A stretch of DNA of 64,000 nucleotides from assembly GCF_003977665.1 (NCBI RefSeq), contig NZ_RYYV01000012.1, positions 62,001-126,000 of the forward strand. Direction: 5' to 3'. This document shows positions 20,120 through 23,017 of the stretch, piece after piece. The translations under genes were made by a program, and so were the position numbers. This DNA comes from Dyella choica. Its GTDB lineage: Bacteria > Pseudomonadota > Gammaproteobacteria > Xanthomonadales > Rhodanobacteraceae. Below the pieces are notes generated by a model that saw nothing but the letters and a program-made list of their open reading frames with translations, ran no database searches and was not told where the DNA came from. The number at the start of each line of letters is the position of its first letter. The first letter of the stretch is position 1.

Positions 20120-20521
20120 ATGAGCGCGAGCGAGATTCCCGGCGATCTGAAATTCCTCAAATCCCACGAGTGGGCCCGTGTCGAAGACAAGGGGTTGGTC
20201 CGCGTGGGCATTTCCGACCATGCACAGGAGCAGTTGGGCGACCTGGTCTACGTCGAGCTGCCCGAAGTCGGCGCCCAGGTGCAGGCGGGCAACGGTGCGG
20301 CCACGGTGGAGTCGGTCAAGGCCGCTTCCGACATCTACTCGCCGGTGTCCGGCGAGATCGTCGAAGTGAACGAGAGCCTCGCCGACAAGCCCGAGACGAT
20401 CAATGAAGATGCCTACGGCGAGGGCTGGCTGTTTGTGGTCAAGCCCAGTGATCGCGGCGAGCTGGACGAACTGCTCGACGCGGATGCCTACGCCGAACTG
20501 ATCGAGAACGAAGATCACTGA
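20120..20521 (+). CDS. gcvH: Glycine cleavage system H protein
   Basis: A 133-residue lipoyl carrier that shuttles the aminomethyl group between the P, T and L proteins. The lipoylated lysine lies in [19 protein letters not shown], and the N-terminal [20 protein letters not shown] plus [20 protein letters not shown] are standard. The acidic C-terminus (ELIENEDH) is normal. It is followed within 20 bases by a strong hairpin that should end the gcvT-gcvH transcript. Confidence 0.97.
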
Positions 20522-20568: not shown

Positions 20569-21044
20569 ATGTTCAAGGCATTACATGACGCAGGCGTGCG
20601 GCGCGACGGCTGCGCGGCGTGAAGAAAACGCATGGCGGACACCGTGACGGAGCATGGCGATCGTCCATCGCTTGCGTGTCCGGTCCGTCGCGGCGGAGCG
20701 CCTCGAGGGTGCTCAAGCGGTCTTCGGACCGTTTTCAGCACCGGCTCGAGCACCTCCCGGTCTAAATTTGTTCATGCTCCCGGATTGCCCGTTCGGGCAG
20801 TTGGAGTGGCGCGGCACGCCGCATGACTGCATGGCTCGCAACGGCGCCATGTGCGTATCATCGCGGATGAGAAAAATCACGTTTTTAAGCTTGTTTTTGG
20901 CCTTTTTCTAAAATCGCGCGAGGCGAATTCTTTGAATGTCTGGATGGCTGCATGCATTGCATTGAGTCATCGAAATACCGTTCTCCCGAGCGTGCCGAGG
21001 TCCGGTCGCCGGGGCGAAGGGATTGATTTCATGGCAAAAATCAA
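20569..21044. other. Intergenic region between gcvH and the MetJ-H1 gene
   Basis: No gene is convincing here. The stretch contains a hairpin CGGACAC/GTGTCCG at about 20636-20682 and, at 20702-20750, a nested hairpin described separately. AT-rich sequence at about 20870-20935 may hold a promoter. A small RNA is possible but I see no match to a known class. Confidence 0.35.
20702..20750 (+). other. Nested 49-nt hairpin with a UUCG tetraloop
   Basis: Three stacked stems share one axis: CTCGAG/CTCGAG outside, GGTGCT/AGCACC in the middle, and CGGTC/GACCG closing a TTCG loop at 20723-20726. Small internal loops separate them. The symmetry and the very stable tetraloop point to an RNA structure, either a terminator (TTTTC follows the inner stem only) or part of a non-coding RNA. 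Confidence 0.45.
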
Positions 21045-21073
21045 TTGACAGTTGAAATGTTCGGGAATAGCTT
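21045..21073 (+). promoter_or_regulatory. Sigma-70-type promoter of the MetJ-H1 gene
   Basis: A perfect -35 TTGACA (21045-21050) is separated by 17 bases from TAGCTT (21068-21073). Transcription would start near 21080, giving a leader of about 20 bases with GGGGAA ahead of the ATG at 21101. I see no tandem AGACGTCT-like met boxes over this promoter. Confidence 0.6.
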
Positions 21074-21100: not shown

Positions 21101-21637
21101 ATGGTGGCATCGAAATACATCCAACCCTACGTAGAACATGGCGCAAAAGCCGACGCGGTGAGAAAGATCACTGTTTCGATACCAATGCATGTATTGCGAC
21201 TGCTGTCGGACCTGCGCACGTACCGGCAGGTCAACAATCTGAGGCACGCCACCAACAGCGATCTGCTGGTTGAGGCGTTCCTCCACGCTTTTACTGGGCA
21301 ACCACTGCCAACTGATGAGGAGCTAAGACGTATTATGGCCACTGCCAAGAAAACCGCACGTAAGTCGGCGAAGAAAGCCGCCAAGAAGACCACTCGTAAA
21401 GCTGCAGCCAAGCGGCCGGTCGCCAAGAAGGCCACCGCCAAGAAGCGCACCGTGCGCAAGACCGCCAAGAAGGCGGGTGCCAAGCGCGTAGGCGCGAAGA
21501 AAGCCACCGCCAAGCGCGTTGGCGCCAAGAAGGCCGCCAAGAAGGCGACCCGTAAGCGCACCGCCAAGAAGGCAGCCGCTGCCAAAGTCGTGAAGGCCAC
21601 CAGGGCCTCCAAGGCCCCCAAGGCCAGCAAGAAGTAA
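21101..21637 (+). CDS. MetJ-like ribbon-helix-helix domain fused to a histone-H1-like Lys/Ala-rich tail
   Basis: A 178-residue two-part protein. Residues 1-78 align almost without gaps to the E. coli methionine repressor Met[56 protein letters not shown] and [10 protein letters not shown]. The DNA-reading strand (RKITVSIP, with the Lys and Thr that contact met boxes in E. coli) is kept. Where MetJ has its final acidic helices, this protein instead has about 100 residues of AKK/TAKK/RKT repeats (residues 79-178), like AlgP and Hc1-type nucleoid proteins. An in-frame ATG at 21335 begins the tail with [18 protein letters not shown], itself the usual start of a free H1-like protein; GAGGAG lies 12 bases upstream, so a second product is possible. 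It has its own promoter and two terminator hairpins. It may be a global, DNA-coating version of a methionine regulator, or a nucleoid protein using a MetJ dimer for anchoring; both are inference. Confidence 0.88.
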
Positions 21638-21711: not shown

Positions 21712-21734
21712 CGTCCCGGCCTCGTGCCGGGACG
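21712..21734 (+). terminator. Second hairpin after the MetJ-H1 gene
   Basis: A 9-bp stem CGTCCCGGC/GCCGGGACG with a 5-base loop is followed by CTTCATTTCC, the better terminator of the tandem pair. The remaining 220 bases to the TonB-family gene hold no recognisable gene. Confidence 0.55.
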
Positions 21735-21958: not shown

Positions 21959-23017
21959 ATGGATACCCGAAACATTCGTCATACGCGCTCGCTTGCGCGC
22001 GGGGCCATCAAGCCCGTCATCATTGCTGTACTTGCCGTCGTGGCAGGTCTGGCGGTCGTGTCCTGGTTCCTCATCATCAAGCCTCACGAAGACTTGCTGA
22101 CTGCGGACACGGGCGGCCATCCGTCCACGCCGGTCAACCTTAACCAGCAACAGGCCGCGGCGCCGCCAGTGAACGTGGATGCGCTGAGCATCGACGCGCT
22201 GCTGTCCGAGGCGCGCAAGGCGATGAACCAGCAGCGCGTGATCGCACCATCCGGCAACAACGCCTTCGAGTTCTACCTCAAGGTGCTGCAGAAGCAGCCC
22301 GGCAACCAGGTAGCGGCCGATGCCTTGCGTGAAACTTTTCCGTTTGCGGCCAGCAACGTCGAGCAGGTCATCAACCAGCGCCAGTTCGAAGAAGCGGACC
22401 GCGAAATCACCTTGTTGGCCAAGGTGGATCCCACCAACTACACGCTGACCATTCTGCGCTCCAAGCTGGACGCCCAGCGCAAGACGCTCGACCAGGAGCA
22501 GCAGAAACAGCTCGACCAGCAGCACCAGGCCGAACTGGCGGCGCAGAAAGCGGCGACTGACAAGGCCGCGGCGGACAAGCTGCTTGCCGACAAGGCTGTG
22601 GCGGACAAGGCCGCACAGCAGCAGGCCGCGCTGGCCACACAGCAGCAAAAGCTCAAGGCAGACGAAGCCAGGACGCCTTCGGCAGCCGCTGCAAACAACC
22701 AGGTGGCCGGCGCTGTCGGCTCGGCTGGCGGCGGCGAAACGCGCGATGCCATTCCGGTTTCCACCATCCGGCCGCATTATCCCGCTACGGCGCTGCGCAA
22801 CAACCAGGAAGGCTGGGTGGATGTGCAATACACCGTCAACGTGGATGGCAGCGTAAGCAACATTTCCGTGATCGGCGCCGAACCGCGGCATGTATTCGAC
22901 AACGCTGCCGTCGATGCGTTGCGCCGCGCCAAGTTCTCGCCGGCGATGCGCGACGGCACGGCCGCCGCTTCGCAGCAGCAGAAGCGGATCGAGTTCAAGC
23001 TCAGTTCCACGCAGTAG
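21959..23017 (+). CDS. TonB-family energy-transducer-like protein with a coiled-coil domain
   Basis: A 352-residue protein with one N-terminal membrane anchor at about residues 18-40 (IKPVIIAVLAVVAGLAVVSW). A periplasmic segment with a tetratricopeptide-like pattern follows (about 65-165), then a long Gln/Lys/Ala coiled coil (about 168-232; repeated DKAAADK-type units). The TonB C-terminal domain occupies about 258-350, with STIRPHYPATALRNNQEGWV and VDALRRAKFSPAMRDG. The YP motif and the final beta-strand are intact. There is no exbB or exbD nearby, so it may use a remote motor or act as a structural TonB-domain protein spanning the periplasm. A hairpin terminator follows. Confidence 0.82.
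   Translation: MDTRNIRHTRSLARGAIKPVIIAVLAVVAGLAVVSWFLIIKPHEDLLTADTGGHPSTPVNLNQQQAAAPPVNVDALSIDALLSEARKAMNQQRVIAPSGNNAFEFYLKVLQKQPGNQVAADALRETFPFAASNVEQVINQRQFEEADREITLLAKVDPTNYTLTILRSKLDAQRKTLDQEQQKQLDQQHQAELAAQKAATDKAAADKLLADKAVADKAAQQQAALATQQQKLKADEARTPSAAAANNQVAGAVGSAGGGETRDAIPVSTIRPHYPATALRNNQEGWVDVQYTVNVDGSVSNISVIGAEPRHVFDNAAVDALRRAKFSPAMRDGTAAASQQQKRIEFKLSSTQ

Follow-up and report, generated by a model that had tools for sequence, protein, structure and literature searches.

Introduction

MetJ is an intertwined dimer, and its core has what we take to be the fold of the ribbon-helix-helix repressor family, Lys23 and Thr25 presumably being the residues that read DNA. According to the accessible part of a simulation study, Glu39 and Arg42 are the interaction partners of SAM in MetJ, and a salt bridge between Glu59 and Arg43 acts as a relay (PMC2775130); the roles of Arg40, Arg43 and Glu59 considered below are taken from the same source. 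Excerpts of one report describe the E. coli system as apparently conserved in many Gram-negative bacteria, including Xanthomonas (PMC7270179), and those of a regulon survey list MetJ in six gammaproteobacterial groups and give no MetJ regulon for the four Xanthomonadales genomes surveyed (PMC4239095). A search of the open-licence literature, partly in the form of excerpts and with subscription papers largely outside its scope, retrieved no description of a fusion of MetJ to a histone H1-like tail (hereafter MetJ-H1) or of metboxes placed before a SAM riboswitch.

Here, a gene encoding such a protein was analyzed in a stretch of 64,000 nucleotides from Dyella choica (hereafter the window). Dyella belongs to the Rhodanobacteraceae, bacteria mostly from soil, and the locus was compared with its counterparts across this family and beyond.

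Results

A MetJ core with an H1-like tail

The gene and its surroundings comprise the following features:

21101..21637, + strand: metJ-H1 coding sequence, 178 aa, an intact ORF
21110..21343, + strand: MetJ core, residues 4-81, from Pfam, NCBIfam and PDB sequence matches
21344..21634, + strand: H1-like Lys/Ala/Arg tail, residues 82-178, with 0 acidic and 0 aromatic residues
21212..21214, + strand: codon of residue 38 (Leu), aligned with the Glu39 position of E. coli MetJ
21221..21223, + strand: codon of residue 41 (Tyr), aligned with the Arg42 position of E. coli MetJ
21712..21734, + strand: terminator-like stem-loop 3' of metJ-H1 (2 such sites in the window against 2.0 expected by chance)
20120..20521, + strand: gcvH, conserved upstream neighbour, kept in 78/80 named loci
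21959..23017, + strand: gene for a TonB C-terminal domain protein, conserved downstream neighbour, kept in 72/80 named loci

The first-pass annotation, made from the letters of the window, had described the protein as a MetJ core carrying an H1-like tail, and profile searches confirmed it. The protein matched Pfam MetJ (PF01340) with an E-value of 3.6e-36 and 123.5 bits (cut-off 25), NCBIfam MetJ (NF003622) with 127 bits (cut-off 110) and, in a PDB sequence search, the E. coli MetJ structure 1cma with an E-value of 7.2e-31, 52 of 78 aligned core residues being identical to the latter. The PF01340 match stopped at profile position 81 of 97, and the E. coli-type C-terminal region, after residue 82, was absent; K, A and R made up 75% of residues 82-178. 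An AlphaFold2 monomer model of the protein (mean pLDDT 50.7, pTM 0.16) was set aside.

Lys/Ala-rich repeats, strong basicity and a lack of aromatic residues are, we assume, the hallmarks of bacterial H1-like tails such as those of AlgP, HupB and Hc1. The tails of MetJ-H1 proteins display all three: among 107 distinct tails, K accounted for 37% and A for 35% of residues, aromatic residues were 0 and the median net charge was +0.41 per residue. The motif K/R-x-x-K/R-A-T/S was found at the C-terminus of 83/107 distinct tails, a count that has no chance control. Comparison of tail codons in close pairs gave pN/pS values of 0.04-0.17 in 7/8 pairs, indicating purifying selection in frame; the eighth, the window versus D. 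flagellata, gave 1.5 on few changes. The tail probably adds sequence-independent contact with DNA, as the analogous Lys-rich domain of HupS suggests; lysine acetylation of HupS lowers its DNA affinity, as reported in the accessible part of PMC11229371.

The fusion is general in Rhodanobacteraceae

A MetJ match was found in 227/233 Rhodanobacteraceae genomes (226 above the cut-off), representing 26/26 genera, with one copy in 220/227, including the window's own genome, and two in 7/227. Of 132 family loci read, some of which share a genome, 126 reach the stop codon and 6 are cut by contig ends. A K/A/R-rich tail, 31-306 residues long, was present in 126/126 complete loci (109 distinct proteins) and in 14/14 further loci, one apiece from 14 genera, that is, in 140/140 complete loci; with some other loci counted in, among them L077 for genus g26, a tail was read in every one of the 26 genera. 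Such recurrence excludes an assembly or sequencing error that had joined two genes, which was the first doubt about the annotation. The other doubt, that relatives might carry MetJ and H1 as separate genes, found no case, since tail-less MetJ was absent from the 140 complete family loci. Among the 8/80 named loci without a TonB-domain neighbour, 7 have at most 705 bases left. One ancestral fusion within Rhodanobacteraceae would be the simplest reading of this distribution. The contig of locus L067 bears the title Candidatus Eremiobacteraeota; its metJ-H1 is of the Dyella type, with a core 96% identical, and in the GcvT+GcvH tree the locus clusters among Dyella, so the title of this record looks wrong.

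Across the order Xanthomonadales, MetJ was found in 145/398 genomes. Thirteen MetJ loci were read outside Rhodanobacteraceae, all from one order family (f9); they had no Lys/Ala tail, stopped within about 25 residues past core position 71 and lacked the E. coli-type C-terminal region. MetJ of two other order families (f12 and f8) was seen solely in the form of open frames 80-93 aa long. In a class-wide sample, 5/369 genomes had MetJ; in the 3 outside the order, the profile match was near-full and the frames were 112-118 aa, and therefore leave no room for such a tail. The first-pass annotation had proposed that the tail replaces the C-terminal helices of MetJ; in MetJ-H1 the region is missing and a tail is present, but the loss is not tied to the tail, because the 13 tail-less f9 loci lack the region too. 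Judging from these sequences, the E. coli-type C-terminal region is probably not a strict requirement for MetJ.

Met boxes precede a SAM-I riboswitch at metX-metB-hom

The met operon of the window's genome, reached via metF, encodes MetX and MetB, both above NCBI cut-offs, and a third, homoserine-dehydrogenase-like product below cut-offs. Its leader contains a SAM-I riboswitch, an element present in 215/233 family genomes, and just 5' of the -35 lie three boxes in 8-bp register, TTACGTTT-AGACGTCT-AAACGGCC, an arrangement that recurs in two other genomes of the genus. Met boxes were scored as matches of a 16-mer to two copies of AGACGTCT, and at least 13/16 was counted as a tandem box at the met operon. 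In 69 family promoters from 26 genera (30 + 16 + 3 loci, plus 20 hand-picked for genus spread), tandem boxes of 13-16/16 were found in 68, between -43 and -64 (for the most part at -52) relative to the SAM-I riboswitch and on the -35 or within about 10 bp of it; the sole exception scored 10/16 (L258, genome G053). By contrast, among 20 genomes of MetJ-less order families, 14 had a SAM-I riboswitch, and their promoters (second riboswitches of two genomes being left unscored) reached at most 10/16 in every case. The family promoters are kin by descent and their counts are not independent events, so the weight rests on the contrast with MetJ-less families and on the spread over 26 genera.

Two further riboswitch classes were seen near methionine-related genes or elements. 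A cobalamin riboswitch (RF00174) lies upstream of metE in 4/4 Dyella-genus loci scanned (L175, L177, L178 and L180); 11 metE genes above cut-off were found in 25 genomes searched, none of them in the window's genome. One Dyella-genus genome carries a SAH riboswitch (RF01057, L189:2985-3119) about 10 kb from its SAM-I riboswitch.

Other candidate met-box sites

A scan of the window's genome for the 16-mer with up to 3 mismatches gave 13 sites versus 18 for the reversed control, that is, no enrichment, and a stricter exact degenerate pattern was not found there. Across the family, the exact degenerate tandem pattern occurred in 96/230 genomes (22/26 genera) versus 2/230 for its reversed control, as read from the table. 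Because of the lack of enrichment in the window's genome, box matches in a single genome were trusted only where relatives repeat them.

Ten own-genome sites were read (L146-L149 and L320-L325). Apart from the met operon, just two, the cysB-cysG and aromatic aminotransferase sites, have counterparts upstream of genes in other genera; two others are located between convergent genes, and six have none of 14 probe genes nearby. Twenty extra family sites, 7 of them near none of the 14 probe genes, and 10 more were picked among the matches listed for the exact pattern. Boxes were seen between cysB-like and cysG genes (own genome, L321; relatives, L312, L317, L318 and L331), before an aromatic aminotransferase gene (own genome, L149; relative, L310) and, in genus g22, before a TonB-dependent receptor gene (L315, L316, L327-L330, L332 and L333); among NCBIfam models this receptor fits the B12 receptor best, at a score below cut-off. 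From their sequences, these three kinds of site are met-box candidates only. The best tandem-box match of the window's genome (L146:1501-1524; C3:82554-82577) has three boxes in register and lies between two similar genes for secreted-protein-like products.

Boxes between the convergent genes pdxJ and exbD were considered as architectural sites and rejected: over 30 pdxJ loci they are patchy, and a Dyella copy (L352) keeps the palindrome and loses the box. A box between convergent lipoprotein and hydrolase genes was rejected by analogy. The pdxJ/exbD palindromes, on the 3' side of pdxJ (L348, L352 and L367), appear from their sequence to be most likely terminator hairpins, and their resemblance to met boxes makes them a trap for met-box scans.

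A distant box upstream of metJ-H1

Upstream of metJ-H1, the window contains three elements:

21045..21050, + strand: -35-like hexamer TTGACA, from family conservation
21068..21073, + strand: -10-like hexamer TAGCTT, 17 bp past the -35, from conservation
20934..20949, + strand: decayed tandem met box GAATGTCTGGATGGCT, at about -170, 10/16 to two copies of AGACGTCT, score counted by eye

TTGACA-N16-18-TA was present in 116/116 distinct family upstreams, and the assignment of the hexamers rests on this conservation. Neither hexamer was picked up by a scan for general promoters, which listed none in the metJ-H1 upstream of the window, as the -10 deviates from TATAAT. Most of the family has a tandem box some 170 bp 5' of the metJ-H1 start and about 112 bp 5' of TTGACA. 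The best 16-mer of the 350 bp upstream was located at -155 to -195 in 107/116 distinct upstreams, when 14 were expected by position; of these, 79 scored at least 12/16 and 28 scored 9-11/16. The far box was also found in 13 of 14 further loci, at 10-14/16. Since these boxes and the promoter-like site do not overlap, auto-control would have to involve looping, spreading or a second promoter. Upstream of the far boxes, about 200-240 bp 5' of metJ-H1, a conserved stretch resembling an inverted repeat (e.g. GGAAACC...GGTTTCC, L063) was noticed by eye in several genera.

DNA-reading residues are kept and SAM-contact residues vary

Residues were compared in 78 distinct cores, loci L001-L017 being left out. 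The equivalents of Lys23, Thr25, Arg40, Arg43 and Glu59 were kept in at least 77/78, and Glu59 and Arg43 in 78/78. Glu39 and Arg42 were both kept in 50 of the distinct cores and both lost in 28; among the 80 named loci, 23 keep both, 57 lose both and 0 are mixed. In the window protein both SAM-contact positions are lost, Glu39 being replaced by Leu and Arg42 by Tyr, and met operators are still present in Dyella despite this loss. Among 14 further genera, 9 keep both residues, 4 lose both and 1 is mixed. The mixed case (L373, genus g10), in which Glu39 is kept and Arg42 is replaced by His, is the sole such MetJ-H1 seen and could possibly represent an intermediate of the two-residue switch. When placed on the GcvT+GcvH tree, the trait needs 7 changes, of which strongly supported branches force only 1. 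Given these substitutions, it is doubtful whether part of the family senses SAM through MetJ-H1.

Discussion

From the fusion, the placement of the boxes, their co-occurrence with MetJ and the riboswitch, all of which can be read in the DNA, we infer binding, repression and a job for the tail. MetJ-H1 would be a true MetJ-type met-box repressor of Rhodanobacteraceae, with a tail that adds general DNA affinity and an action stacked on that of the SAM-I riboswitch, a reading to which we assign a probability of about 0.8. The MetJ core would dimerize and read tandem 8-bp met boxes; at metX-metB-hom, where the boxes abut, overlap or closely precede the -35, the bound repressor would block RNA polymerase, and the riboswitch in the operon's leader would provide a second, RNA-level control by SAM. 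The very basic tail would make sequence-independent contacts that hold the protein more tightly, and it may bridge or spread, for example from the boxes situated some 110 bp 5' of the -35 of the metJ-H1 promoter. In Rhodanobacter thiooxydans FW510-R12 exposed to rising nitrate, the accessible part of PMC12146267 reports MetJ protein going up and four methionine enzymes going down, and its authors suggest MetJ as the cause. Against the repressor reading stand the lack of met-box enrichment in the window's genome, the decayed box before its metJ-H1, its loss of Glu39 and Arg42, the one family promoter with only 10/16 and the 7 of 20 extra sites away from the probe genes.

Where Glu39 and Arg42 are gone, it is conceivable, if rather unlikely, that MetJ-H1 is a SAM-independent or other-ligand silencer nucleated by sequence, whose tail would coat or bridge the DNA to the promoter 110 bp away and which would leave SAM sensing to the riboswitch. 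The first-pass annotation had considered that the fused protein might spread from met boxes, condense DNA in response to SAM, or have lost specificity and become a nucleoid protein. In a version of the last proposal, the former MetJ core would serve only as a dimer and DNA-docking platform with a residual met role. H1-like tails of 31-306 residues with 0 aromatic residues and a median charge of +0.41 per residue, the conserved metJ-H1 promoter with its consensus -35, the disappearance of Glu39 and Arg42 from many lineages and the decayed distal box of the window would all suit this proposal; it is nevertheless improbable, because met-operon boxes accompany the fused gene in 26/26 genera and are missing at the same promoter in MetJ-less families, and the DNA-reading positions stay conserved.

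Of similarly low probability is the view that MetJ-H1 is an ordinary MetJ whose Lys/Ala tail has no function and reflects neutral expansion of low-complexity sequence. The wide variation in length (31 to 306 residues) and repeats would be expected from it, but the tail occurs in 140/140 complete loci, is under in-frame purifying selection in 7/8 pairs and ends in the K/R-x-x-K/R-A-T/S motif in 83/107 distinct tails, with the proviso on chance given above. It would be more surprising still if the boxes before the riboswitch served a different regulator, for instance the ArsR-type SamR, with MetJ-H1 acting elsewhere. The accessible part of PMC4239095 predicts that met genes of Xanthomonadales are under SamR control, but the SamR motif partly resembles ATC-10 nt-GAT, unlike AGACGTCT repeats; the boxes fit the published MetJ consensus in 8-bp register and, among the scored promoters, occur only where MetJ does.

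As a met-box repressor, MetJ-H1 would extend MetJ to a family of the order for which the available excerpts of a four-genome regulon survey report no MetJ regulon (PMC4239095). A histone-like tail on a bacterial pathway repressor would then have been maintained in 26 genera, and the pairing of a repressor with a riboswitch, both SAM-type controls, at one promoter suggests stacked control of methionine synthesis. The near-coupled change of Glu39 and Arg42 offers a natural test of SAM sensing by MetJ.

Comparison with known systems

MetJ-H1 resembles E. coli MetJ (PF01340, 1cma) in its core, its tandem AGACGTCT-type operators and its putative targets, the met genes. It differs in having a basic tail of 31-306 aa and no E. 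coli-type C-terminal region, in a met operon that also carries a SAM-I riboswitch, in the loss of Glu39 and Arg42 in many lineages and in boxes near its own gene that are some 170 bp 5' of the start. The met operon of Xanthomonas campestris likewise has a SAM-I riboswitch in its leader, as described in excerpts of PMC6230763 and PMC7270179; however, in strain Xcc 8004 metJ is missing and the met promoter is unresponsive to methionine (PMC6230763, accessible part), whereas the Rhodanobacteraceae promoter has MetJ-type boxes. Repressor boxes ahead of a riboswitch are also found at btuB, where, in the available text of PMC3228920, metboxes precede a cobalamin riboswitch; in that case the riboswitch responds to B12 and MetJ uses SAM, whereas at metX-metB-hom the repressor family and the riboswitch are both SAM controls. 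Finally, HupS and HupB, in the portion available of PMC11229371, combine a DNA-binding core with a long Lys-rich domain, as MetJ-H1 does, but HU is a general nucleoid protein and MetJ a sequence-reading pathway repressor.
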